Positions 149-64,000 of a stretch of DNA of 64,000 nucleotides are shown here, piece after piece. Origin of the DNA: Hesseltinella vesiculosa (taxonomy: Eukaryota > Mucoromycota > Mucoromycetes > Mucorales > Cunninghamellaceae); NCBI GenBank assembly GCA_002104935.1, contig MCGT01000002.1, forward strand, positions 1,364,001-1,428,000, written 5' to 3'. The notes under the pieces were generated by a model. The model saw only the letters and a program-made list of their open reading frames with translations. It searched no databases and was not told the origin of the DNA. Position 1 is the stretch's first letter. The number at the start of each line of letters is the position of its first letter. The translations under genes were made by a program, and so were the position numbers.

Positions 149-478
149 CTAGACGACGGAACATTGGCAGACGTGGTAGTTGAAGCTGTTGCGAGAGCAG
201 CCGAAAGCTTCAATACGTTCAAAGTTCTGGGGTCTCAAACCAATACAAGCGATTTGTCCAACGTTGGAGGGGTTGTGGTGCTCACCGTCGTACATACAGG
301 TGTGGCCACCGGCACCGTTGACACCCAATTCGATACAGTGGTTGGCGGTGTATACGGTTTCGTCATAGCCAGGCATACCGTAGATGGTAACAGTGACAGC
401 GGGATCGATTTCAGGTGCGGCCATCAAGCCAGGAACAAGAGCAGCCAAAGCAAGAGCGAAGTAGTGAATTTGAACCAT
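149..478 (-). CDS. small secreted cysteine-rich protein SSP-1 (two-module member)
   Basis: A 109-residue intronless ORF starting with MVQ. Residues 1-20 form a clear signal peptide ending in PGLMA. The mature part holds two copies of the module shared by all seven SSP genes here. The C-terminal copy is complete: an IACIG start, then F-x-R-I-E-A-F-G-C, then a C-Q-C end. The N-terminal copy (VTIYGMPG... ANHC ... HTC) keeps two cysteines and has lost the other two. That gives six cysteines in all. It is the first of the array in the window and lies on the same strand as five of its relatives. The family is not one I recognise, so no activity is proposed. Secretion to the surface or medium is inferred from the leader. 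The start was chosen because the leader aligns with those of the other six genes. Confidence 0.8.
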   Translation of the reverse strand: MVQIHYFALALAALVPGLMAAPEIDPAVTVTIYGMPGYDETVYTANHCIELGVNGAGGHTCMYDGEHHNPSNVGQIACIGLRPQNFERIEAFGCSRNSFNYHVCQCSVV

Positions 479-540
479 TGTGTTTTTCTTAATTGAAGTG
501 AAGATGTTGTTGATATTTTCAAAGATGTGTCAAACAAGGT

Positions 541-578
541 CATTTTATACCTTTTTTTATTTTTTATTTTGACCTGGC
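541..578 (-). promoter_or_regulatory. SSP-1 core promoter: A-tract plus TATA box
   Basis: On the minus strand an A-rich tract runs into GGTATAAAATG about 63-72 bases upstream of the SSP-1 start codon. The same layout recurs at SSP-3, SSP-6 and SSP-7. Confidence 0.5.
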
Positions 579-2464
579 ACTGCTGTCACTGCCTCTCGAT
601 TCTGAGATTAGAAATACCACAATTGAAATTTTTAACAAATGTTCTCATTTTCTGCTTCTACTTTGGGAAATTCTTCTTGAACCTTAATCATACAATGCCT
701 CCATGTAAACCCTGCAGGTGGGAGCAGGGGCGTGGAGGCAGAGCTGGGTGCTACTTGTTGCCATGAGGATGCCTTTTGAACGATTTTTTTTTCCGCCCTC
801 TTTCCATTTTCTTTTTTTTTGCGTGGGCTTTTGGGTAGCTCGCAAACGAGTTTGAACATGAGGAAGGCTGCAAACGAGAATATTTCGTTCTTGTCGCCTA
901 ACCATCCCTTTACCCCTTTGCCGCGCTCCGTTTCCGGTAGGGCAACGGCTTAAAAAAAAAGACAAATACCCCATGCCCTAGGATCTGGGTCGGGGTTGTC
1001 TCGATAGACAACCAAGATCTGGCAATGCCGGTGCTCGCCATTGGTTACTTCGACCTGTCAAAACTGCACAATGCGCGGAATGGAAACATTTCTTTATTGG
1101 GAAATGACAAGACAATAAACTCTGTGGTGCCATCAGAATGACGATACATCAGCTCCCCAATTTTTTTTTTTTTCGTACTTGGATCGAAGTTTATTAGTGA
1201 AGGCACGGCTTACTTCATCATCGCCTCCAATCTCGGCGATTTGCACGGGTCTAGTACAATAGCTAAGGAGAACATAGGGCAAGTCATAAAGAGCTTGTCA
1301 TCTTGATTCCAGAATGCAACAGATCGGCAGTTGCAGCATATGCACTCGAAATTGCATGTCGCTGACGAGTGGCAAACCAGGGGCGAACCGTCAGTTTTAA
1401 AGAGGCCCTCTTTATGATGCTCCATAGGTTGGCGGCTCGATCTCGATTTTTTCCATGACGAGTCAACAAGTAGCTAGGGAAGTCTTCGGTAAAAAGCAAT
1501 CGTACCGAGTCATCTTGACCTAGACGGCATATAAGCGGGTATGCAGGACACTGAAGGAATGAATGGCATGGTGTCAGAGGCTGGATTCAAGTTTAGATGT
1601 GGCATTGTATGTGATCAGGGGATAAAGCGAGACAATTTAGTGGCTTTTCAAATGAGATGAACTGGTCGAAAAATCAAAAGATGTGACATACCGACTGAAG
1701 AGGAGATGTGCATAATGGACAGCCCTCTTAAAAGAGAAGTGTGGTTAAAAAGGAAAGCCCGTGCATTTTGGCCCAATATGGAATTGACAATAGGGGAAAG
1801 GGATAGCCACAGCCAAAAAAAAAAATAAAGAAAATCCAGAAACTCGTAAAAGTTAAATCTAGCATGAGCCGTATGGTCCATGGCAAGAAAACAGGTGCAT
1901 ACATAAAAGGCAATGCTCACTGTAATAAGCATGTATCATAGCATTTTTGAATCTGTTGCTACAGCTGAAAATATGTAGACATCATGCCAAAAAATTTCTT
2001 GCCCTTGAACCAAACCTGACGACCATGTGCAATTTCAGAAGCTACCAGCGTTTCCATTCTTTGTCAGATTTTTTTGAGCCGCGAATAAATTATTTAGCGA
2101 GCAAAATAATCAGGCAAATCACCAAATTATTTGAAGTTGTTTAAAATCAAAAAATCTTGTGCATGCGAACCACTTTCTTGTATGTGCAGGCAGGTCAACA
2201 GTGGTCTCAGAAAAAAAAAGGCAGCGCCATTTTAAAAGACTACCATTTTTGAGCTGCTTTTGTCAAACCAAGCTGAGAAGAGCGACATTGAAGCAGACAC
2301 AACAGGGGAAGAAGAAATTGGCGTCATTGGAGCAGTTTGTAAATGAAGGCATAGGCATTGGAGGTTTGGATGACTTTATTATATCGAGCGTAGTATTCAC
2401 TGATTACCAGCTACCATGGTACGCCCAGAATCGAAAGCGTTGTGCGGTGATTGAATCCAGCCAC
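579..2464. other. intergenic, no gene recognised
   Basis: Only short unconvincing ORFs occur here. A perfect 8-bp stem with a 4-base loop (GGTTGTCT / CGAT / AGACAACC) lies at 994-1013. Several A/T homopolymers are present. No RNA gene was recognised. Confidence 0.5.
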
Positions 2465-2785
2465 TTCTTTTTCTTCAATTTGAAAAAAAAAAGACCCACT
2501 TGCTATACAGTACTTTTGAATGATCGTATTGATGTGAAATTTTGTATGGTTGCGCAAATGCATGAGTGATGGCGGCACTGAAAAAGTTAAGCTGATTGGT
2601 AAAGGTCGCCCAGCCGCCTATTGAACAGTTTCGATTTGTCACTTCCGATTCTCCAGCCAAAATAAATGAAAATCGGCCATTTTCACCAGGGGACCCTCAG
2701 GCCGTCTGCTGAAAAACCACAGTGCAAAACTGGCCCAAGTCAATTCGCCCAAAATTTGCACACAAGCTCAAAATGGTGAGAAATG
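2465..2785 (-). repeat. dispersed repeat copy A
   Basis: Read on the minus strand, this block aligns over about 300 bases with 12595-12960 and 30595-30930. Shared landmarks are a GGTCCCC/GGGGATCC core, GGCCGATTTT, GAATCGGA and CATGCATTTGCG. The copies are diverged with indels, and no shared open frame is kept. I could not define terminal repeats or target duplications, so the class is unknown. Confidence 0.65.
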
Positions 2786-2879
2786 ATGATGGTTAAAATC
2801 ACATCTCCCTCAGATAGCGACAGGGATAGTTAGGAGGCAGATTGTCAATTACTTTGCGCACACCTGCCAGGAAGGGATG

Positions 2880-2990
2880 TTTTGCGGTGATTAAAAACAG
2901 TTTCGACTAGTCACTTCCGATTCTCCAGCCAAAATAAATGAAAAATCGGCCATTTTCACCAGGGAACCCCCCCCCCCCGTGCCAACTGAT
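2880..2990 (-). repeat. partial dispersed repeat copy, next to copy A
   Basis: This block repeats the central part of copy A in the same orientation (CACTTCCGATTCTCCAGCC, then AAATCGGCCATTTTCACC) and ends in a run of C. It looks like a truncated or tandemly duplicated fragment. Confidence 0.65.
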
Positions 2991-3091
2991 AAAAAATCAT
3001 AGTCCGATGCCCAAAGTCCAACAACTTCTCCAACAGCTGCAGTGTCAAATCAAGGGTGCGATGATTACTGATCTTGTTTAATCGATAGATC

Positions 3092-3124
3092 TTTTTTTTT
3101 TTTTTTGCAAAAAAAAAAAAAAAA
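3092..3124. repeat. homopolymeric inverted repeat T15-GC-A16
   Basis: Fifteen T, the dinucleotide GC, then sixteen A form an essentially loopless inverted repeat. It lies 220 bases beyond the 3' end of SSP-2. It could extrude as a cruciform or form a hairpin in RNA, but no function is implied. Confidence 0.6.
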
Positions 3125-3345
3125 GAGGTAGCCTGTTTAGCAAGAGCCGCGGTAGGCTCCTGACTGGTCCGATGGCAGGTTGGCGTGCGCGCTCTTGCCT
3201 TCTCAATGTGTCGCGGGACATGATCAGGATTTCATCTGGTTTGGGCTGAGACCTGGTAGCAATACTTTTTTATATTTTATTGCAAGACATTGCATTGAGC
3301 TCCTTGGCTCAAATTTTTCTTGTTGGGATGTCAGCAAAAACTGAT

Positions 3346-3690
3346 TCAAGCTTGATCTTCCTTGCATACGCAGTAGTAGTAACCAGAGCCTGTTTGCTTG
3401 CAGTTGGTAGCAGTGAATTTCGTAAAATGGGGATCAACTAATCCGTTGCAACTAACGGTGACCTCGTTTGGCACATCTTCAGTTACATTGTTACATTTAT
3501 AAATGCGACCGTGTAAAAGTGGTTCACAGCCATCAGCAGTAAAGCCGGTGACCCCAGTGTCGGGCAATCCTGTAACATCCACAATAACTCTGCGACCTTC
3601 CAAAGATCCATCATCTGGGGCAAAAGCTGGGATTGCCAGCAATCCTGGAACGAGCGCTCCTAGTGCAACAAACAATTGCATTTGGACCAT
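3346..3690 (-). CDS. small secreted cysteine-rich protein SSP-2 (two-module member)
   Basis: A 114-residue intronless protein. The start at 3690 was chosen because MVQMQLF begins the family leader. The frame is open 16 codons further upstream, but that stretch is lysine-rich and unlike a leader. The signal peptide is about residues 1-20 (ends PGLLA). Two SSP modules follow. The first (VDVTGLPD...GFTADGC...YKC) retains two of four cysteines. The second (VTVSCNG...KFTATNC...YYYCVC) has all four. The layout matches SSP-1, which suggests the pair descends from one module duplication. An N-glycosylation site (NVT) lies between the modules. Function unknown. Confidence 0.8.
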   Translation of the reverse strand: MVQMQLFVALGALVPGLLAIPAFAPDDGSLEGRRVIVDVTGLPDTGVTGFTADGCEPLLHGRIYKCNNVTEDVPNEVTVSCNGLVDPHFTKFTATNCKQTGSGYYYCVCKEDQA

Positions 3691-3747
3691 TTTTTCTTTT
3701 TCAACTTTCAATCGGATAGAGCATTTTTTTTTGTACACAACTCACTT

Positions 3748-3762
3748 TGGGTTATATATGCT
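3748..3762 (-). promoter_or_regulatory. SSP-2 TATA-like element
   Basis: CATATATAAC on the minus strand lies about 60-70 bases upstream of the chosen SSP-2 start. It has no adjacent long A-tract, unlike the other members. Confidence 0.4.
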
Positions 3763-3779
3763 TTCAGGAGGTTAGTCTA

Positions 3780-6520
3780 GATGCCTTTAGTGGATGACTG
3801 GTACTAAAACATAACTCTCTCCATATGGCGATCAGACGCAACTTTTTTGCACGTTCACAGCTTCTGCACTTTGCACGGTATGCTTTTCGGGCCTTATTAC
3901 GCAAAGAGGCATTCCTGTGTTGTGACTTTTTTTTCTTTCATATGACCCTTCTGTTTCTTGAGATGTAACCGGCAAGTTCTCGGAGATGTTCATATCAACA
4001 ATGAGAAGGAGTCCCTTTATACGCACATTTTGTCTTTTTACATGGCCTGAATTTGTACGTGTTTTCATTGTTTGGCCCAGCGTGGTAGCAATGACGGCAT
4101 GATATTTAGTGGCGGTTTTTGTGCACCAGCTTGATCAAGCTGTTAAACAAGAATGATACCCCATATTCATTGGCACAACATCAAAGACAATTTAGCTTAT
4201 AGCATGGTCATAGTTTATAAAGTGGTGCAGGTCTGCCATGCGGCTTTCGGCCAAAATGAAAGGAAGCACAGGAAAAATGTCCAGTTTTATTTTTAAACCA
4301 ATCATGTGTTATCTATACAGCACTTTTGAAAGGATTATATTGATTTAAAAAGTTTTCATGAGCAAATGAGGCTCGTGTTTAGCTTCTCTTGTTTGACTGG
4401 CATCGTCAAAAAATAATAATGATAAAATAGAATGCAGGAGCCGCTCTTCTCTAAATCTGGCAGGAGCCAAATGGGACGCGCCTTTTTTTCTTTTCTTTTT
4501 TTTTTTTGTTCTAACCATTTTGCACCAAGGATCAACAATGATCCACACCGAGAGACGGGTCACAAGCTACATGTAAAAGCTCTCTGCAATTACCCATAAA
4601 CCTACCCCGCTTGCTAACGAGACAATGACTACAGATGTGCAGCGTGTTTAGCCATGACAATGGGTTGACTCTACATCAAGAACAGTTTGATCTCTCATGG
4701 GTCGAGGGCACGCCAAAAGTAAGTAAACGTTACCACCTTCCCCATCTCGTTCTCATCACTTTATCAATCTCGCTCTTCTAACTTCCCCCCTTTCACTTTT
4801 CACACTTTTTTAGACTTGCATTGCTATTCTTCTTGCGGATCGTCATCCCACCTGATGTTCTTCAGGCTAGCCGAAGATCCGTTTTAAGTCCAACCAGATA
4901 GAGGTAAATGTTTTATGCAGAGTGTCTTCACCATAACCACCTTTTACTCTTCCTCATTTCTGGGGTGGCGGCACAGTACACCTGCAAGCAGCGCTGAACT
5001 CTATGCCACTCAGAACCGTGGTACATGTGGTGTTCCTGGCCACACCACTTCATCCTCTTGTCCCTATCTGCGACACACAACGAACAAAAAAGAACTCCCG
5101 CAATTCTTTATGCCGTTGCATGAGAAGTATGCCAAAGCTTGCTCCTTCCACGATGTAGGTGGCCGGCAAAGAACTGTGCTTGGGTATGCGGCTGAGCTGA
5201 CTGTGGCATGGAAACAACAAGCCCCAAGCAACAAATCCTACCCAGCTTTCAAACCCGTGTCTGGGGATTTGTGAAATTCTCATTGCAAGTCGTCTTGGTC
5301 AGGTAAGCAGGGATAAAAGAAAATGCAGAGCTTGGTACAGCGGCTAACATTCAGACTCTCTCGCTCTCTCTTTTTATTTAGCAACCAGTCGCTGCGGCTG
5401 TGCGCTCTATTCAAGACTTTGTCTACCAACAATTCGCAGCGCTTAACTCCTGGTGATTCTGTACCTATTTAGACATGAAATCATCCCATACGACCTTCAT
5501 GGCATCACTACATCCTCCTCGTCTCCGATTCCCCGACTAAAAACAATGAAAGATCGACCGGCTCTGTTCTATGAAGTCCCCTACGCTTCACCAATTTATC
5601 ACCATTACGCTTCTCCGCCGGAACCCTGGACGTGTCTTACCGATACTTGTCAGGATTCTTCAGGTGTACGATGCCTACAGAGCACCATTTCAATGCGCAA
5701 ATACACAACCGGAACTGCACATACCCGCCTTTTCGGTCCTTGCCAAAATTGAGCCGGCCATTGAATCGGGGAACAGCCTACCATCTCACGGGATCCCCAC
5801 GACCAACTGGTCTTCGTGTCAACCAGGAGCCACCATCTAAATATGTCACGGACGCCTTCTGGGAAGTTTGCCAGATGGATCAATATTATAATAGGCAAGT
5901 TGGAGTGAGAGAAAACAGTCGAAGTTAGCAAAGCGCGCTAACCTTTTTTTTCGATGCTTTTCCCCGTTAGTCAAGCGGCATCGAAAAAGAGCCATACTTG
6001 GGCATCATGTTTCCTTGGTCTCGCATTAGCTGATGTCATGTTTGCTCAGACGAAACTGGTACACCCACCTCAGTAGTGTGCTGATGACCTGCCCAGCATT
6101 GGAACTTTTCAGCTAGATTATCAGAACTCTGGCGTTGACCCAATGCGCCGTGCAATTGTTACAACATCGTATGGCACTGGATCAGCACTCCACACCTACC
6201 TGCAGATTACCATGACAGAATGCGTGGCCGGCACTGGTCGGGTGGATCGAGCATAATGGCTTGAAAAGCGCAATTGGTAAAACCGTGTCGGATCGAAATA
6301 AATAACCCAACTTTCTCACAGGAGAAAGCCAGGAAGCTAGGCTTTTATCCTCTTTTTTTTTTTTACTCTTTCGTGACATGGATTCTAAGCATCCCTAGAT
6401 ATGGCTCGGGCTCTTGGGAGAATCGTTTTCATTCTCGTGGCCCCTCCAAACTTTAGAAAAGCGTAGCAAAACACGCGTGAGCCATTTATTTCGAACGGCG
6501 ATAATGAAACTTATATCGCA
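3780..6520. other. 2.7-kb spacer, no gene recognised
   Basis: An open stretch at 4915-5274 (119 codons, plus strand) is flanked by splice-like signals (GTAAGTAAACG near 4717, TTTTTTAG near 4815, GTAAGC near 5303, TTTATTTAG near 5380). It could be the debris of a spliced gene, but the translations match nothing I know and frames break repeatedly. Nothing else is supportable. Confidence 0.35.
4310..4372 (-). repeat. fragment of the dispersed repeat
   Basis: The stretch TATACAGCACTTTTGAA through GAGCAAATGAGG matches one end of copy A (2501-2566) in the same orientation. It is a short, decayed fragment. Confidence 0.45.
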
Positions 6521-6528
6521 AGATAAAC

Positions 6529-6774
6529 TTATTTACCAATTTGAGGATGAGCATCGCAGAAACATTGGTAATAACCAGGTTCTGCACCTAGAAGGCTGCA
6601 TCTGCTAGCGATGAAATTAAGAGGGTTTGGTTCATCCAATCCGAAACAAGTGATGTGCACCGGGTCTGTCTGGCGAGCGGCTAAATTCTTCCCAGCCGAG
6701 TGTTGAGCGGAACTAGCCATCATTCCAGGCACGAGCATTGCCAATGCCACAGCAAACCATTTAGCTTGAACCAT
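6529..6774 (-). CDS. small secreted cysteine-rich protein SSP-3 (single module)
   Basis: An 81-residue intronless protein. The leader MVQAKWFAVALAML...MMA covers residues 1-20. A short pro-like stretch ends in AARQ, and then comes one complete module: VHITCFG, NFIASRC, YYQCFC. The four cysteines follow the family spacing C-x(~16)-C-x(~10)-C-x-C. It is one of the shortest members and close to a minimal unit. It is transcribed away from SSP-4, with which it shares a 787-base upstream region. Function unknown. Confidence 0.8.
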   Translation of the reverse strand: MVQAKWFAVALAMLVPGMMASSAQHSAGKNLAARQTDPVHITCFGLDEPNPLNFIASRCSLLGAEPGYYQCFCDAHPQIGK

Positions 6775-6828
6775 TATATTTTATCTTGAGGATGAGTTAA
6801 TGAATGGTGGAAGCAGAAAATAGACGGC

Positions 6829-6864
6829 AGTATTTATACTTTTTTTTTTTTTTTTTTTTTTTTT
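6829..6864 (-). promoter_or_regulatory. SSP-3 core promoter: A24 tract plus TATA box
   Basis: On the minus strand 24 consecutive A run directly into AAGTATAAATA, about 57-66 bases upstream of the start codon. Confidence 0.5.
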
Positions 6865-7478
6865 GAAATAGTGCATTTCAATTGGCAACCACCATATACT
6901 CCTCTTTCTCTCCGGGATTATGCCTTGATGATACGTTGGGGGTTCATCTTATATGCAGATCCTAACCCTCAGTTAATGCTTCCCGATAATTGAGTGTTGT
7001 GCACGGATCAATGCCAATGCTGCATTGCAATTCGAATTTTTTTTTTTTACCTTTTTTTTCGCTGTCAATGGATTTTTGATTTCATGCTGGCTTTTCTTTT
7101 CACAAAAAAAATCACTGCTTGCATGCTGTTAGCGTATGGCCACTTAATCTTTATGGTCATGAAAAATGTTTTTTATTTGTCTTTAGCTGCCCGAAAGAGC
7201 GTCGTCACTGTACCAAATTTTGCTTCGCATAAAGATGCAAAGGGGAATAGGATTCGTACTTCGAAACAAGCCAATATGTTCAAGAGGCACCGGCATTGTA
7301 GAATCTTGGCATAAACGAGCCTCGGTGTATATGAGCTCGGCATAATTGGTCTTGCTTTAAGCTCGTGAATTTCCAGCAGGGCCGAAAAGGTAAAATGCAA
7401 AAATAATGCCACCAGTTTCCGGTTGCTATCCGACCCCGATCCATGCTGGTCATCCCAAAGATTGCATATTTCTGTCAA

Positions 7479-7490
7479 AGTATATATTCT
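7479..7490 (+). promoter_or_regulatory. SSP-4 TATA-like element
   Basis: AGTATATATTC lies 72-83 bases upstream of the SSP-4 start and is followed by T and A tracts in the presumed 5' leader. Confidence 0.45.
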
Positions 7491-7561
7491 TGCCTTATTT
7501 TTTTTTCTAAAAAAAAAAGTAAATCAAAAGTTGACAACATTCACTTAAAAAATATAACACG

Positions 7562-7804
7562 ATGGTTCAAGTTCAATTGTTTGCAATGGCTTTGGCAATG
7601 GTTGTGCCTGGAATGATGGCCTATTCTATCCCCGATTATGGCATGGACTTAGAAGCTCGCCAATACCCACCCGTCAATATTACTTGCATTGGAATCTATG
7701 GCACGGATGTTACCAGCTTCGGTGCTTTTAACTGTTTTGCAATGGGAGATAATGAAACGATGTGCGACTGCACGGACATCTCCAGTGAGAGCATCACCGT
7801 TTAA
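7562..7804 (+). CDS. small secreted cysteine-rich protein SSP-4 (single module)
   Basis: An 80-residue intronless protein and the only SSP on the plus strand. The leader MVQVQLFAMALAMV...MMA is residues 1-20. An acidic linker ending LEARQ precedes one complete module: VNITCIG, FGAFNC, TMCDC. NITC and NETM are potential N-glycosylation sites. It stands divergently to SSP-3. The LEARQ end of the linker resembles the AARQ in SSP-3 and LEARQ in SSP-7, so processing after arginine is possible but not shown. Function unknown. Confidence 0.8.
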   Translation: MVQVQLFAMALAMVVPGMMAYSIPDYGMDLEARQYPPVNITCIGIYGTDVTSFGAFNCFAMGDNETMCDCTDISSESITV

Positions 7805-8837
7805 CTCGAACAACACCCATGCAATGGTAGCAACGCCCATAGTTATTTTTGCATCGAAAATGAGCTAATAAAATCGTTAACCAGAGAGTCTAGTATTCCC
7901 GGCATTTTTGGAATTTTGCTTTTTGCTTGCAGTTTATAGCCGCCTGTTTGAGCAGTATTGTAAAACTTTATTATAACCATCCAAGCTGAACTTTGGTTCG
8001 CTGGCTCAAACGGGTAAGCATTGTATGCTTTTTTTTTTTTTTTCAAAACGACCAAAAAAAAAAAATCTATAAAGCTTATATTGAATAGAGGCTAAAAAGA
8101 AGAGAACGGCTAGAATCTAATTGGAATGCAAGAAAGGGACGAATCCATGATGAAAAAGGGGATGGGAAAAGGAGGACGATTTTGGACTCGTTTTTTTCAT
8201 TTTTCATTTTTCATCCTGGAGAATCGGAGGTTCCAAACGGTAAGAGATGTCAAGCTGGCTGGGAAGCCTTCATCGATCGGCTTCAATACGGCATCCATGT
8301 GTCCTATAAAGCTGTGCTCTATTACAAAATTTCACGCCGATTCTATCAGTGAAAGATGATTTACTGCCTTTTCTTTTTTTAAAAAATGCAATGGGGGGAC
8401 CTTGACGATGTGGACAAAAAATCATCATTTTTCATAGAAAACCAGTCACCATCGGTTCACCCCAAAGTTGACACACTGGAGCATAGGATGAGGTGACATT
8501 CTAGTTGCAAGCACAGGCCATGCATTCAGCGTTATGGCAAGCTTGAAGCCAAAGAGCTGCCATAAAACCTACCGCACGCATAAATTTGCAGGAAAAACAG
8601 CCAATTGCGTCCAACGAAATCACCTGTTTAATATTTCAAATTCCGAGCTGAGACTACAGTAAAAATCTCGCAGTCAGGGAAAATTCTGAGCAGAAGCGTG
8701 TCACACACAATACAAAGATCGAGGAAGACTGATGGAAAAACTTTAAATGCAATGAGAAGTCCAATTGAGCAGTAAAAAAGGGAGATATATCATTTAATGC
8801 GGAGATGATTAGCGGTCGCTGATGAGCACAGCTTTGC
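7805..8837. other. intergenic, no gene recognised
   Basis: The stretch contains A/T homopolymers and, near 8195-8242, a short match to the dispersed repeat (TTTTTCATTTTTCATCC, then GGAGAATCGGAGGTTCC). No coding region is supported. Confidence 0.4.
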
Positions 8838-9137
8838 TTAGACGATTGGAATTTCGGCACATTCACAGTGCAACTGTCCATCATCCTGTACAGTGCAGTT
8901 CGATGCAACAAATATTTCAACTAATGGCGGGATACCGAGGCACACGATATTGACAGGGGCTAATTCCTGACGCATGGTTAAGTCCTCGTTGCTGGGGTCC
9001 AAGGACGGAAACACCGTCAAGTCTTCGTTTGTAGGTTCAAAAAAAGGAGGCTGCAACAAATCTTCAATGGAAGGAGTTGCCATCAGACCAGGCACAAGTA
9101 CTGCTAATGCAACTGCAAACCACTGATATTGGACCAT
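8838..9137 (-). CDS. small secreted cysteine-rich protein SSP-5 (single module)
   Basis: A 99-residue intronless protein. The leader MVQYQWFAVALAVL...LMA is residues 1-20. It is followed by an acidic linker with two imperfect copies of (T/S)NEDLT about 15 residues apart, then TMRQ, then one complete module: VNIVCLG, IFVASNC, LHCEC. The linker is longer than in SSP-3 and SSP-4, so length variation in the family lies between leader and module. No convincing TATA box lies at the usual distance. Function unknown. Confidence 0.8.
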   Translation of the reverse strand: MVQYQWFAVALAVLVPGLMATPSIEDLLQPPFFEPTNEDLTVFPSLDPSNEDLTMRQELAPVNIVCLGIPPLVEIFVASNCTVQDDGQLHCECAEIPIV

Positions 9138-9858
9138 CTTTTCCTTTTTACGGTGGTGTATTCAACGATAAAAATAAAATTAAAAAAAAAAAGATCAAAA
9201 CTTTTCCATTCCATCGTGGTTTTTTTTTTTAGCCAATTCTTGAGCTCATTTCCAACCGCGCCTTTGATGAAGATTTTTTAGCTGCTTCCTCCCGCTCCCG
9301 CTCCCGCTCACTTTCAAATTCAAAGGTGACCTGTGCAAAATGTAGTCTAAATTAATATTTTTTAAGTCTCCAGGTGCACATGTAGCACATTGCAAAGGCA
9401 GGAATATTTGAACATGCGTGAGGATAATTTCATGCTGACAGGAAATTCGAGCAAAGCAGTATGAAGCGGAGGTTAAAACATACATGGCCATCGGCTTTTT
9501 GAGTTCACCGTTACACTTCGATGTATACAACATCATGCGTAGGCTATGCTTGTAGGCCGTAACGGCAACTGTGGAGTTAGACAATCAAACGCTTCCAGCC
9601 CTCCTAGTTTGAGGATTATCGGAGAGTTTGGAACTTTGGTATGAATGGTATGAAGGGCATAGTGCAAATCTGATTGGCGGAAAGCAACGCCCTCACACCA
9701 GCATTAATGACCAATGAGAGCAGTTACAATTTGAAAAACCGGGTTGAGGTGACAGCTTTCTCAGAGAGGGTGGAACTCAAGTAGCTCTGGAAATTTAGGG
9801 TCATTTAATAGCGTAGAAACATTAAAAAATTATGAAAAAAAAGAGGGTACAAAGTATA
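9138..9858. other. intergenic, no gene recognised
   Basis: Nothing coding is supported here. A short GC-rich simple repeat, TCCCGC repeated about three times, occurs near 9291-9308. Confidence 0.4.
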
Positions 9859-10191
9859 TTAATCATCAGCTGGTGGTGCCACTGAAGGTGATGGTGCAGG
9901 AGGGGGGGTAATGGAGCAATGGCAAGCATAGCGATCAAGAGACACTTGGACGCAATCCACCGCAGTAAAATCAGTCACACCCTTTCCTGGAAGACCTTTA
10001 CAAAATACTTCTGCGGTAAATGGTGATGCAGAGGTGTTAGCAAGGGAATCAGCTGCAGGTGTGGTTGGATCTGGCGTAGTTGCGGCTGCATCACGGGCTA
10101 TTAACCATGCCGTTGAGTCGGCAGCAGGGCGCGCGAACATGCCAGGAGCAAGTAATGCCATTGCTACTGCAAGCCACTGGATTTGGATCAT
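9859..10191 (-). CDS. small secreted cysteine-rich protein SSP-6 (single module)
   Basis: A 110-residue intronless protein with the leader MIQIQWLAVAMALL...MFA (residues 1-20; the second residue is I, not V). A Thr/Pro/Ala-rich linker of about 45 residues follows, with an LIARD site. One module comes next (AEVFCKG, DFTAVDC, YACHC), and then a Pro/Ala tail. The rich Thr/Ser/Pro linker looks like an O-glycosylated stalk. It lies head-to-tail with SSP-5 and SSP-7. Function unknown. Confidence 0.8.
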   Translation of the reverse strand: MIQIQWLAVAMALLAPGMFARPAADSTAWLIARDAAATTPDPTTPAADSLANTSASPFTAEVFCKGLPGKGVTDFTAVDCVQVSLDRYACHCSITPPPAPSPSVAPPADD

Positions 10192-10251
10192 GTTTTAGAT
10201 ACTTCTTGAGAATAGACTGGGTGAATGCTGTGATGAAAAAAAAAAAGACAC

Positions 10252-10272
10252 AGATTTATACTTTTTTTTTTC
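10252..10272 (-). promoter_or_regulatory. SSP-6 core promoter: A-tract plus TATA box
   Basis: On the minus strand an A-run leads into AAGTATAAATC about 62-70 bases upstream of the start codon, the same arrangement as SSP-3. Confidence 0.5.
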
Positions 10273-11112
10273 CCTCGAACAAGATCTTGGCGATTGACAC
10301 TTGTTTCAAACACTCCTTTTCACTAGAGAATAGAAAAGATCTGGAAAACATATTTTTATCTTCTTGATTTGTGTGCAAGTTTTTTTTTTTTCGTGTTCTG
10401 GATGCCAGTTAAAAAAGGGGCAAGCGCCTTCCTTTAAGCTGGATTTTTTTTTTCCTGTAGGAACACGGCGTCGCTCAAAAATTCCTAATAAGACTTGTTT
10501 TTGCCGTTTTTTTCTTTTTTATGCTGTGATCTGGTATGTCGATGCGCGCCTATTGTCGAGACTTCCCCCTCTTTCTCAATTTTCTGTTGTTTGGAACGTG
10601 GCGTAAAATGAAAATGCTAGGGGTAAAAAAAAAAATTATACATCTCCTCATTTCAGAAAATGAGCGGGCCAATGACATTCTTGTGATCGCCAAAATGAAT
10701 GGTAATGCTTTTTGTCATTGACAAAGTCTATTTTTTATTGTAGCACATTTTTCGGTCGAGGTCTTTCAGTCGGTGGCGGAGGCTGAAACCCGCTAACCAG
10801 CCAGCATGACAGTATCGCATTGGTAAAAAATTGAACTTGAAATTTGGACAAGCAATTTAATCTTTATGATCTCCTTCTGGTACCAGAACTCTGATCTTCT
10901 GTAAATCATCTTGCACCATGTAAAGTTGGTGAACTGAGCCTGACCAATTTTTTTTTCTCGGAGGGCGCGCATTTTTAATTTTTTCAAAAAAGGAGCTCCG
11001 TACTCATCTCTCCTTTTTTTTTTTTTTTTTTTTTTTGGTATATTCAAAGACAGCAAGCCGTCTTTCTAGCAGAGATACGGTGATCATGGAAAAGCTTATC
11101 ATACTTGTTTAT
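10273..11112. other. intergenic, no gene recognised
   Basis: T-rich sequence with several homopolymers, including a T22 run ending at 11036. No coding region is supported. Confidence 0.4.
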
Positions 11113-11979
11113 TTAATTGCTGGGTGGGAAGCCCAAGGAAGCATCAGAACTGCTGGTGCCGGAATTACTGCTCTTGATTTTTTTGTTTTTCTTGCTCTTC
11201 TTTGGCTTGACAGCTTCGGTATTGCTCGCGTCAGAATTCATAGCTTCTGAATCGGTTGCTTCAGAGTTGCCGGCCTCAGAGTTACCAGCATCGGAATTGC
11301 CTGCTTCGGAATTGCTTGCATCGGAATTGCCTGCATCGGAATTGCCTGCTTCAGAGTTCCCTGCATCTGCACCATTGAGGTTGCTCATGTTATCAGAGTT
11401 GCTGTGCATGGAGTTGCTGATGTTGCCTTCATTGGTAGTGGTAGCTGGTGGAGATGACGCGGCATTTGGACCTTGTTCTGTTGTGAGAGGGACATTCGTG
11501 TTTTGTGAAGTGGGGTCGGTGGAGATGCAGTCGCAAGCATACATACCGGCAGCAACTGCCTTGCAGCCAGTGGCTGTAAATCCAGCGTTTCCAGTGGGGT
11601 TGAACCCAAGGCATACAATTGGTAGAGAAGCAACAGCTGACATCGACACTGGCAATGATGCTGGCATGCTAGGCATTGACATTGGTATAGGTAAGGGGGC
11701 TGACACCATTGGTCCAGCCATAGGCATTGGCATAGGTGCAGCCATAGGCATGGGCATAGGTACAGGAGCGGGTGGAGAATTAACTGTAAATTCTGGGTTG
11801 ATCATACCTGGTTGCTGAGACATTTGCATTGGTCCACCGTACATATAATTTGGTTCACCATACGGGAATGGTGAAGAAGCTCCTTGGCGAGCCTCTAGCT
11901 TTGCACTGAATGTTGGGCGGGCCAGTAGACCAGGCATAAACATCGAGATTACTGTTGCGAGCCATAGAGCTTGGACCAT
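11113..11979 (-). CDS. long secreted SSP-7: module embedded in low-complexity arms
   Basis: A 288-residue intronless protein. The start at 11979 fits the family leader (MVQALWLATVISMF...LLA). The frame is open further upstream but that stretch is lysine-rich and lacks a leader. After LEARQ comes a Met/Pro/Ala-rich segment with repeated PMPM units (about residues 45-120). One complete module follows (LPIVCLG, GFTATGC, YACDC). Then comes a Ser/Thr/Asn-rich region, about ten copies of a five-residue repeat of the AGNS(D/E) type, and a tail with a lysine cluster (KPKKSKKNKK). Only the leader and module are shared with SSP-1 to SSP-6. The extended arms suggest a cell-wall or matrix role, but this is inference. 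Confidence 0.75.
   Translation of the reverse strand: MVQALWLATVISMFMPGLLARPTFSAKLEARQGASSPFPYGEPNYMYGGPMQMSQQPGMINPEFTVNSPPAPVPMPMPMAAPMPMPMAGPMVSAPLPIPMSMPSMPASLPVSMSAVASLPIVCLGFNPTGNAGFTATGCKAVAAGMYACDCISTDPTSQNTNVPLTTEQGPNAASSPPATTTNEGNISNSMHSNSDNMSNLNGADAGNSEAGNSDAGNSDASNSEAGNSDAGNSEAGNSEATDSEAMNSDASNTEAVKPKKSKKNKKIKSSNSGTSSSDASLGFPPSN
11230..11372 (-). repeat. 15-bp coding minisatellite in SSP-7
   Basis: Imperfect 15-base units (on the plus strand of the type GAATTGCCTGCATCG) encode the (D/E)AGNS five-residue repeat. Unit number is likely to vary between strains. Confidence 0.75.
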
Positions 11980-12062: not shown

Positions 12063-13650
12063 GCAAAGGCTTTAAGTTAAAAATCACTCTCCTTTTTACT
12101 GTCTCATAGCGGAGATCGTCCCTTATATTTTGCTTCTTCATTTCATGCAAGCTTCCAGTCCCTGTTTAAAGGGGTAGATGAACATGCCAGTGGGCCTGCT
12201 CTCCAAGAACGACTCAATATCTCTTTATGTCATTTTCTAATGCCCCTCTGGCTCGGCCTCTATTAAACACGAGAGATTGTCTTGGACAAGATGTCTAGAC
12301 TTCTTCAAAACTTATGCAAACCTGCTTTTTTTTTGGTTACTTTAAATTTTTTTTTTTTTACAACTCCTTGTCAACTTCAAATGAGTACAAATTCGGTAAC
12401 ATCTTTTCCATTTGTGTTGAGGATCTGTGACTGGATGTACCAAGGGGTGGCAAATTTCCTCTCCCTTTGTCTTTTTTCATTGTCAATTCACAGTTCACCA
12501 GGCAGGATCCATTGTCTCATTTTTTTGGTTATAGCTTTCGCTTCGCTAGGGAGAGACAGCAATGGGCGTGTAGCTGTAAACTTGCTCAAAACCATTTCTC
12601 ATGATTTTGTGGCTGTGTGCGCGAATTGACTTGACCAATTTTGCACTGTGATTTTTCATCAGATGGCCTGGGGATCCCCCGGTAAAAATGACCGATTTTT
12701 CATTTTTTTTAGCTGACGATTCGGAGGTGTCAAAACCGAAACCTGTCAAAAATCGGCTGGGTGACCTTCACGAATGGACTTGATTTTCTCAGCATCATCA
12801 TCATTCATGCATTTGCGCTCTCACGCGACATTCACATCGATACAATCACTCAAACCTGTTGTGCAGCAGTTAGTTTTTTTTTTAACAAAGAAATTAATGC
12901 GGCCAGTTTCAATCTCCGCACAGCTCGATCAATACTGTACCTGGCCAGTGCATGCAGCCATTGGTCATCAGGGAAGGCAGTCCTCGCCCCTAAAAAAAAG
13001 ACGAGAATCCATTTCCAAAGCATCCAAAAGTCCCAAACGATGTAGAAGTATCAGTGCTGTGATCATCTTGATCAATGCCGCGCTTAACAAAAGGCCCAAG
13101 AGAACACCTACTTTGGTGATGGCCAATGGCAGCATTAGAAACGGCTTCGAGCGCGATGGACTTGCTTTTGTTCACGGCTCAAAAAAGAAAAGCGTGGCAG
13201 CCAACAAATGGCGGCTGAAATGTGGTACTTTGCTAGTTCGTTATCGAAAACTGGTGTCATGCCGGTGGAGAACGGGAAATAGAAAAAAATACGTGTCAAG
13301 TCTCCTGTGAGGGAGATATTATTGACACGCATTTTATGACTGCGTCTCATGCCATGATGGTATGAGGTGTGGAACCCTCTCATGAGGTTTGAAAACAGTG
13401 ACAACAGAAGTAGCCAAAAAAAAAAAAAGCGGTTATCGACTTTGAGCATGTCACTCCTTTTTTTTTTTCACTGCGACTCTTTAAATTTTTACAGTATCAT
13501 CTCTCCCAATTTCTCTTTTACTGTACGACTTCGATCTTGTGCAACCTGACAATTGCTTATGGTTTAAGTGTATTAAACGGGCGGACTCGCCATTATAAAA
13601 ACGAGGGAGGAGTGGGGTATCCAATGTTACAAGAAAAAAAAGGTTCACCG
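12063..13650. other. intergenic with one repeat copy
   Basis: No gene is supported. The only recognisable content is dispersed repeat copy B. A 178-codon open frame over the repeat is low complexity and is not conserved in the other copies. Confidence 0.5.
12595..12960 (+). repeat. dispersed repeat copy B
   Basis: The longest intact alignment partner of copies A and C. It begins near TTTCTCATGATTTTG, contains a GGGGATCCCCC palindrome near 12671, the GATTCGGAGGTGTCAAAAC block and the CATGCATTTGCG block, and ends around CATGCAGCCATTGG. The palindromic core is less perfect in the other copies. Confidence 0.65.
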
Positions 13651-22784: not shown

Positions 22785-23672
22785 ATGACAAGAAAACGAT
22801 TGTTACAATGGCAGCAATCGGATCTTCGTCATTTGTGTCTCGATGTCCGACCCCAACAGGAGTATTTACTTGACCATTTACGGACATCTGTCAACATCCC
22901 ATTGGATCATTTGCCGAAACGGATGGCCGAACTGCCTCCCAAACAACAGCCATTTACCTTGATCACCCATGATCACCCTGACCAAGATGATGCAAAGCAA
23001 TGGCTTGTTGGCCACGGCTGGCAGCCCCGTGTTGTCTTCCGTCCTCGACATGAACTCTGTTTTTGGCCAAAGGCCAAAGCTCTGGGTTGCCATGGCACCG
23101 GCCTCCGTCCCGCCACATTTTTATTTCGACCACACCCCCTTTTACAAGACCACCTTGGGCTGTTGCAAGACAAGCTACACAATGCGGAAGACCCTTCCGA
23201 TGGTGGTGATGTCCATGTGCTGGATATAGGTTGTGGCTCGGGTCGTGACCTAACATGGTTGCTGAATGCTCACCCGACATGGCAAGGCACCGGCATCGAC
23301 GCTTTACAAGGGGCGCAGGAACGGTTCGCATGGACAACATTACCTGTCCGGGACCGTGTGCAATTTCTCCAGATCAAGATTGGGGCCACCCTAGCCTTGC
23401 CTCGACGATACCACCTGGTTTTAATGATGCGATGTCTAATTCGTCCATTCCTGTCTGGAAGCCTACCGAATCTGGTACGTCCAGGGGGCCTGGTGGTGCT
23501 GTCTCATTTTGTTGATCAAGGCGACTATCTGTATCCAAGAAAACATCTCCGACTTCAGCCCAAAGAACTGGAACAATGGGCCCTAGATTTTGGCTTCTCT
23601 CTCCTGGTCAACCGCACCGACACAACAGAGGACGGCCGCCCGACACACTCAGTCATCCTGGCAAAAAAATAA
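22785..23672 (+). CDS. rhodanese-like domain fused to a class I SAM methyltransferase
   Basis: A single-exon gene of 295 residues, first ATG at 22785. Residues about 15-88 resemble a rhodanese fold (LDVRPQQEYLLDHLRTSVNI, then PLDHLPKRMAELP), but the active-site loop reads ITHDHPDQDD with no cysteine, so sulfur transfer is unlikely. Residues about 145-270 carry the SAM-binding motif VLDIGCGSGRD, the acidic GTGID step, and later PGGLVVLSHF. The methyl acceptor cannot be read from sequence. Inactive rhodanese domains often act as regulatory or binding modules. It shares its promoter with the 1-Cys peroxiredoxin. Confidence 0.75.
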   Translation: MTRKRLLQWQQSDLRHLCLDVRPQQEYLLDHLRTSVNIPLDHLPKRMAELPPKQQPFTLITHDHPDQDDAKQWLVGHGWQPRVVFRPRHELCFWPKAKALGCHGTGLRPATFLFRPHPLLQDHLGLLQDKLHNAEDPSDGGDVHVLDIGCGSGRDLTWLLNAHPTWQGTGIDALQGAQERFAWTTLPVRDRVQFLQIKIGATLALPRRYHLVLMMRCLIRPFLSGSLPNLVRPGGLVVLSHFVDQGDYLYPRKHLRLQPKELEQWALDFGFSLLVNRTDTTEDGRPTHSVILAKK

Positions 23673-46283: not shown

Positions 46284-46906
46284 GATGCTATCTTTTTTGT
46301 TGGTAAGATGTCGGTCGATGAAGGAAGGAAAAAAAAAAAAAAAAGAGGAAAATTGGCCCCTTTTATGAGCGCCGATTGCCTACTTTGAACAAGTGCAAAA
46401 AAAGCCGCCGCCATTGGCTAGGCACTGATGTGCATGAACGAATCCCCGGCTGTCACTCTCGAACTCTTGGCAAGGGCTTTGATGAAGAAGTTAGGTAACG
46501 TGGAACGAGGAATACTGTAACAACAGGGCTATGTCCATCTTGGCACTTCAGCCCCGTTCAAGAAAAAAGCTACCCAGCCATAGTTTGCTTACAGGCTATA
46601 TGTTTTTGTGTCTCGGCGGCCATTCCGCATGTCAGCGTGTGAGTGGAAAAGCATGGAGATGGGCATGACTGTTGTTTGTGTGATGGATTTGAAACCTAGG
46701 GAAAGGCAGTCATGTGATGGGATTTTGCATGAATGGAGAAAAACAAGAAACAAGGCGAATGACTTTTTTCATGAGTGTTACTCCAACCCAGCATAAAAAA
46801 GGTAAAATGGCCACCGGAGTCATTTAACATTTTTTGTGTTTTCTTTTCTTCTTCACCAAACTCGCTAAAAAAGTGCGAAAAAAAAAAACGAGACTCGGTT
46901 TCCATC
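46284..46906. other. divergent intergenic region
   Basis: Lies between the EF-hand gene and the small Cys-tail gene. CATAAAAAAG near 46792-46801 is a possible TATA element for the latter. No further gene is seen. Confidence 0.35.

Positions 46907-62995: not shown

Positions 62996-64000
<1,005 letters not shown>

Follow-up and report, generated by a model that had tools for sequence, protein, structure and literature searches.

An array of apparently secreted four-cysteine proteins in Hesseltinella vesiculosa and the family to which it belongs

Small secreted cysteine-rich fungal proteins (SSCP/SSP) form a loose class whose members have a leader, fewer than 300 residues and at least four cysteines, lack a named domain and are poorly conserved between species. 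Hydrophobins and CFEM proteins are characterized by an eight-cysteine pattern. In Kex2-processed secreted proteins, including Ywp1 with its propeptide and the KEP signalling peptides, a predicted Kex2 cut separates the leader from the mature part; LXXR is named as a Kex2 preference in an excerpt of PMC6258133, and the KEPs are described in part of PMC6339444 as having repeated peptide units. The present analysis deals with a stretch of 64,000 nucleotides from Hesseltinella vesiculosa (C12:1364001-1428000, hereafter the window; genome of 27.05 Mb in 85 contigs), in which an array of seven genes (approximately C12:1364149-1375979, on a contig of 1,513,655 bases) codes for proteins of 80 to 288 residues that combine a common leader with a four-cysteine module. 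The chances appear about even that these proteins belong to a lineage-restricted family of secreted, Kex2-trimmed, acidic, disulfide-held β-peptides acting outside the cell. Small secreted cysteine-rich families are an already known kind, within which this family is new; it is not a new kind of system.

The wider family was collected by ten protein queries of the genome and reading of the fetched loci. It comprises at least ten module genes, seven in the array and three elsewhere (named here after their contigs, C9, C56 and C6), together with a decayed copy and a pair of genes on contig C67 that have the leader but no module, all counts being lower bounds. As in the SSCP/SSP class, the products of all ten module genes are short (80-288 residues) and have at least four cysteines, arranged C-C-CxC. 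What sets the family apart from that loose class is its coherence: its members are homologous and built on a single module, which is duplicated internally in four of them, and an L-x-x-R pro-site is a further distinguishing feature. Unlike KEPs, its members have one predicted cut and one predicted product per precursor, and in place of near-identical repeats between Kex2 sites each precursor holds one module or two diverged ones. Nor does it resemble hydrophobins or CFEM proteins, given its four cysteines per module and the lack of a Pfam match to either.

All seven open reading frames (ORFs) that the first-pass annotation had proposed for the array are present at the positions it gave and run intact from ATG to stop (Table 1); gene 4 is on the forward strand and the other six are on the reverse strand. 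The leader of about 20 residues and the module that it had described as common to the seven genes were borne out by alignment and profiles. The leader pattern is M[VI]Q...PG.xA and the module pattern C-x-G-[LIFM]...[FI]-x-A-x-x-C...C-x-C, with eleven invariant columns in the alignment of the seven proteins (M1, Q3, P16, G17, A20, C78, G80, A91, C94, C104 and C106 in gene 1 numbering). Profiles built each time with the tested gene left out, and scored on whole ORFs among 4,761 six-frame ORFs from the window and twelve further stretches, recovered nine of the ten module genes with expectation values (E) of 1.2e-5 to 1.7e-16. In ten shuffled copies of the ORF set, the best match of each run had an E of 0.12 to 0.43, far above these values, and chance is therefore excluded for the nine genes. 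The tenth, gene 4, was missed by its leave-one-out profile (E 7.2), yet it is 45% identical to gene 3 (E 2.7e-10).

Spacers, linkers and tails had been said to vary freely, which does not hold for the spacing of the module, as 16 residues separate the first cysteine (C1) from the second (C2) in eight of the ten modules, and 15 and 17 in the others. The proportion of synonymous differences (pS) exceeds that of non-synonymous differences (pN) both in the leaders of the 12 genes (0.63 vs 0.29) and in the seven modules of equal length (0.78 vs 0.48), with synonymous sites near saturation and one residue counted twice in the gene 2 and C6 leaders. Silent changes thus being favoured, the reading frames look coding. 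A TATA box lies 48-90 bases before the ATG in nine of the 12 genes, and in six of the seven of the array; by the pattern used, it is lacking in gene 5, C56 and C6. In gene 7, the long ORF begins at 12141; the start at 11979 that had been assigned to this gene is backed by a TATA box 57 bases upstream.

The shared leader of 19-20 residues is hydrophobic and ends in A, on the basis of which the proteins are apparently secreted. Between leader and module, the motif L-x-x-R is present in eight of the 12 proteins, compared with 1.09 on average and 6 at most in 20,000 within-region shuffles. An R-R or K-R pair is found in four proteins, two of which also have L-x-x-R, so that ten of the 12 have one or the other site. 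Since the motif is strongly non-random and fits the preference given in the PMC6258133 excerpt, Kex2 cutting may be inferred. The residue that follows the predicted cut is Gln in genes 3, 4, 5, 7 and C67a. The leader would thus send the chain into the secretory pathway, where a Kex2-type protease would cut after L-x-x-R or the dibasic pair, and in genes 3, 4, 5 and 7 the N-terminal Gln left by this cut would cyclise. A clear Kex2-type pro-site would in this way be added to small secreted cysteine-rich precursors.

In genes 3, 4 and 5, the predicted cleavage would free one compact product of 43-47 residues each, as might be expected of secreted peptides that signal in development or mating. This possibility is nevertheless unlikely: each precursor would yield a single product without repeated identical peptides, the paralogues are strongly diverged, and mating in Mucorales is known to rely on trisporic acids. 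The mature products predicted for the ten module genes are all negatively charged, from -0.9 (C56) to -11.2. It is therefore very doubtful that they are cationic antimicrobial peptides, whose net positive charge they lack, even if they are small and cysteine-rich and the family profile weakly matches antimicrobial peptide 1 (1c01, E 0.53).

Four proteins, those of genes 1, 2, C9 and C56, have two modules, of which the first is degenerate. In all four first modules, C1 is replaced by Val or Ile and the fourth cysteine (C4) by Tyr or Asn, while C2 and the third cysteine (C3) are kept. The four-cysteine profile matched the first module of gene 2 (E 1.8e-6), C9 (E 1.3e-5) and C56 (E 2.1e-4), which took ranks 1 to 3 of 1,004 rows with either type of shuffle; by this comparison, module 1 is homologous to module 2 in three of the four cases. 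Because C1 and C4 have been lost together in all four degenerate modules, this pattern suggests the disulfides C1-C4 and C2-C3. The AlphaFold 2 (AF2) model of the predicted mature product of gene 3 (47 residues) has a mean predicted local distance difference test score (pLDDT) of 83.5, with strands at residues 6-10, 20-27 and 34-41, and that of a two-module protein has six strands at a pLDDT of 70.1. Each module is thus predicted to be a three-stranded sheet. Following Kex2 cleavage, the acidic product would fold as a three-stranded antiparallel sheet held by the two proposed disulfides, and two-module members might form a six-stranded body, as predicted with low confidence. The anatomy and the processing model are considered likely.

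A bolder proposal for the two-module members is that a new, minimal disulfide-held β-domain of about 35 residues was born in one Mucorales lineage and duplicated within a gene, that the first copy then dropped one disulfide, and that the two three-stranded units closed into a six-stranded OB-like barrel. This sequence of events is rather improbable. No sequence match links the family to OB-like small β-barrels such as CusF and IF1, the Z score is within the range of common arrangements, and no significant fold match was obtained for the AF2 models (Foldseek for the two-module model, pLDDT 70). If the proposal were true, the family would show a small barrel fold born from a peptide unit with single-unit forms still in the same array. 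With both forms side by side, it offers a test case for the origin of a two-unit barrel from a one-unit peptide.

The first-pass annotation knew of no named family with this module, and the searches agree with it: no Pfam model passed its gathering score in the seven full proteins, the ten module rows or nine rows rescanned singly, and no PDB chain matched at E ≤ 0.001. A strong Pfam match had been set beforehand as the outcome that would speak against the claim; it was looked for and not found, the nearest approach being RNase A at E 0.0012. None of the Pfam models above cut-off named an enzyme or a lytic peptide. Protein searches of 5.8 billion proteins returned 3, 4 and 3 matches, to five different proteins, all from the Hesseltinella vesiculosa genome; these searches rely on shared five-residue words and predicted proteins, and the candidates scored were the best 7,994 by shared words, 148 and 254. 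Among the literature titles listed on secreted or cysteine-rich proteins of Mucorales, Mucoromycota and Mucoromycotina, none concerned this family, most subscription journals being outside the scope of that search.

The approach to RNase A raises the question of whether two-module members are distant RNase A-like proteins, and possibly ribonucleases. The C9 protein matches Pfam RnaseA (PF00074) at E 0.0012 over 38 residues, and a search with the family profile reaches RNase 1 (2vq9) at E 0.0075 and three more RNase A-type chains at 0.077 to 0.24. Shuffles with fixed Cys and Gly matched RnaseA in none of ten cases, their best match of any kind being 0.058. The likeness to the RNase A superfamily is in a stretch of 36-45 residues with C-x(9-10)-C-x-Y and V-x-C-x-G spacing. 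However, the Pfam score of 19.7 bits is below the gathering cut-off of 23.1 and concerns only one of ten members, and the C9 sequence on its own matches 2vq9 with an E of only 0.56. The match spans profile positions 73-111 of 121 and so lies outside most of the active-site residues. The catalytic residues of RNase A are His-Lys-His, and the family has no invariant His or Lys, the invariant columns of the module being C, G and A. The products of genes 3 to 5, at 43-47 residues, are too short for the fold, and the proteins differ from the superfamily in being short and fungal as well. No entry named RNase A was found among the best 50 of 147 Foldseek matches or among the 50 VIA-align matches listed, and a PDB search with the C56 sequence gave four weak matches (E 0.068 to 0.48), none to RNase A. 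Kinship of the two-module members with RNase A appears very improbable and is retained as a weak alternative.

Tandem duplication had been put forward as the mode of growth of the array. This is upheld in part, as genes 3 and 4 look like a local inverted pair. In contrast, gene 1 has its closest genomic counterpart, itself aside, in C56 (42% identical, E 7.7e-8), and gene 2 in C9 (E 6.1e-10), both on other contigs, and local tandem duplication is therefore not the whole story. The tree of the ten module genes (58 columns) supports none of its seven inner branches. In the decayed copy beside the C9 gene, what is left of the leader is followed by a stop, and the second module is incomplete. Mean identity is higher among the leaders (51%, 12 genes) than among the modules (34%, seven genes of equal module length), and the C67 genes, to judge from their open frames, are cases of leader reuse on other mature parts. 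These two genes, about 9 kb apart, have the common leader and an R-P-I-G-[ED] start, and at least the longer body is Ser/Thr-rich. Birth-and-death evolution would account for this pattern of an inverted pair of neighbours, copies dispersed in the genome, one decayed copy and leaders reused without the module. Between leader and module 1, the C56 protein (L037:511-561) has an EF-hand-loop-like stretch, D-P-D-G-H-H-H-V-N-F-D-E-F; one source names the protein EF-hand domain-containing, and the Pfam EF-hand match is only at E 0.17.

What such products might do outside the cell can be approached from their divergence, composition and surroundings; the first-pass annotation had suggested an effector, wall or signalling role. 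They may be fast-diverging surface or interaction proteins that meet other microbes or the wall of the fungus itself, and would be neither enzymes nor membrane-lysing peptides. There is little to choose between the interaction and wall readings, and each taken singly is possible but somewhat doubtful. Effectors or interference factors against competing microbes, protists or plants would be expected, from an arms race, to be small, apparently secreted, cysteine-held, diverse and species-restricted, as these proteins are in the data, and to leave decayed copies such as that beside C9. On the other hand, no host is known for Hesseltinella vesiculosa, and with pN below pS in leader and module nothing points to diversifying selection, a comparison limited by the near saturation of synonymous sites. 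Furthermore, the array sits among ordinary-looking genes, and the G+C content of the window's first 12 kb (43.2%) is near that of the rest of the window (46.2%) and of the 30 kb to the left (45.9%). The first-pass annotation had housekeeping genes start only after the array, which reflects where the window happens to begin: ordinary gene-like ORFs are also present in the 10 kb to its left, as judged by eye, with a family scan for one ORF only. A screen of the 30 kb left of the window for the leader and module patterns found none, and a looser screen gave chance ORFs only. As for proteins of the fungal wall or spore surface, the Ser/Thr/Asn-rich tail of gene 7, the Ser/Thr-rich body of at least the longer C67 gene and the hydrophobicity of some products (e.g., gene 5, with a grand average of hydropathy of 0.71) would suit them, but no hydrophobic C-terminus of the glycosylphosphatidylinositol type was seen by eye in the members, and no hydrophobin or CFEM model of Pfam matched.

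Several points weigh against the view of a lineage-restricted family of secreted, Kex2-trimmed, disulfide-held β-peptides. The first module of gene 1 fails to beat the shuffles (E 0.28, level with the best shuffle, and rank 12 among 1004 when Cys and Gly stay in place), and its identification draws on the alignment with C56. The joint loss of C1 and C4, from which the disulfide pairing was deduced, may be a single ancestral event. Both L-x-x-R and dibasic sites are missing from gene 1 and C56, so that the Kex2 step cannot apply to every member. Moreover, the L-x-x-R motif was chosen after inspection of the sequences, with the C67 pro-regions fixed at 40 residues. The gene 7 module, used alone as a query, matches only itself in the genome, and its membership comes from the profile (E 7.4e-8) and the leader. 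The lineage restriction is derived from a word-seeded search of predicted proteins, and unannotated or distant relatives in other Mucorales are possible. Finally, the surface role would follow from divergence, charge and tails only.

The family has been missed by Pfam, and at least one public gene model fuses two of its members, apparently in error; it provides a compact test case for the growth of lineage-specific secreted proteins in early-diverging fungi. The public model in question, DM01DRAFT_328111 (144 residues, 8838-10191), splices gene 6 into gene 5, dropping the gene 6 module and part of the gene 5 leader, and looks like an annotation error.

Table 1. Coordinates of the array genes and of family members on other contigs (window positions unless a contig, C, is named; L numbers denote fetched stretches; leave-one-out E from whole ORFs).
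Feature	Position	Strand	Basis
Gene 1, 109 aa: leader and two modules (first degenerate, second canonical)	149..478	-	ORF, alignment
Gene 1 module 1 (Ile for C1, Tyr for C4)	290..397	-	alignment with C56
Gene 1 four-cysteine module	161..247	-	leave-one-out E 6.5e-10 for ORF
TATAAA box, 71 bases before gene 1 ATG	544..549	-	pattern
Gene 2, 114 aa: leader, L-E-G-R-R site and two modules (first degenerate, second canonical)	3346..3690	-	ORF, alignment
Gene 2 module 1 (cysteines 1 and 4 lost)	3487..3588	-	four-cysteine profile E 1.8e-6, rank 1 of 1004 with shuffles
Gene 2 four-cysteine module	3364..3450	-	leave-one-out E 1.7e-16 for ORF
Gene 2 L-x-x-R site	3592..3603	-	motif
Gene 3, 81 aa, single module	6529..6774	-	ORF, alignment; structure predicted
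Gene 3 four-cysteine module	6556..6648	-	leave-one-out E 1.2e-5
Gene 3 L-A-A-R site before Gln	6673..6684	-	motif
Gene 4, 80 aa, one module, paired divergently with gene 3	7562..7804	+	ORF; 45% identity to gene 3
Gene 4 four-cysteine module	7685..7771	+	leave-one-out fails, E 7.2
Gene 4 L-E-A-R site before Gln	7649..7660	+	motif
Gene 5, 99 aa, single module	8838..9137	-	ORF, alignment
Gene 5 four-cysteine module	8859..8942	-	leave-one-out E 9.2e-6
Gene 5 L-T-M-R site before Gln	8970..8981	-	motif
Gene 6, 110 aa, single module, Pro-rich tail	9859..10191	-	ORF, alignment
Gene 6 four-cysteine module	9916..10002	-	leave-one-out E 1.1e-7
Gene 6 L-I-A-R site before Asp	10093..10104	-	motif
Gene 7, 288 aa: leader, Pro/Met-rich linker, module, Ser/Asn-rich repeat tail with Lys cluster	11113..11979	-	ORF, alignment
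Gene 7 four-cysteine module	11527..11613	-	leave-one-out E 7.4e-8
Gene 7 L-E-A-R site before Gln	11887..11898	-	motif
C9 module gene	C9:140489-140818	-	genome protein query
C56 module gene	C56:788451-788813	+	genome protein query
C6 module gene	C6:373599-373925	-	genome protein query
Decayed copy beside C9 gene	C9:142038-142205 (L039:1996-2187)		internal TAG
C67 leader-only gene	C67:38492-39091 (L034:2492-3091)	-	open frame without module
C67 leader-only gene	C67:48443-49660 (L035:2443-3660)	+	open frame without module

A number of further candidates were set aside. The match at L003:6224-6313 in the left flank (E 0.013 to 0.72 in nine of ten leave-one-out runs, 0.049 in a module-profile search) is antisense to a dehydrogenase-like gene, as judged by eye. 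The C2 match of the C6 query (E 0.35) has neither leader nor module by the patterns, and in nine ORFs from the loose screen (C9 and C6 flanks, left flank and window) leader and module do not occur together. One of these nine, a short ORF at 46380-46490 of the window (reverse strand), has a canonical-looking cysteine and alanine spacing; it is absent from the module-profile matches at E ≤ 10, its upstream sequence showed no leader, and it was taken as chance.

Between genes 2 and 3, residues 32-82 of an ORF at 4915-5274 have matches at 31 further genomic sites (E 9.7e-9 to 0.17). This ORF, with C-G-x-x-G-H spacing and without a Pfam match, is probably a repeat or transposon relic inside the array. 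Elsewhere in the window, a single ORF at 22785-23672 joins rhodanese-like and methyltransferase domains, and another at 62996-63652 contains ubiquitin, a diverged ubiquitin-like repeat and an AN1 zinc finger.

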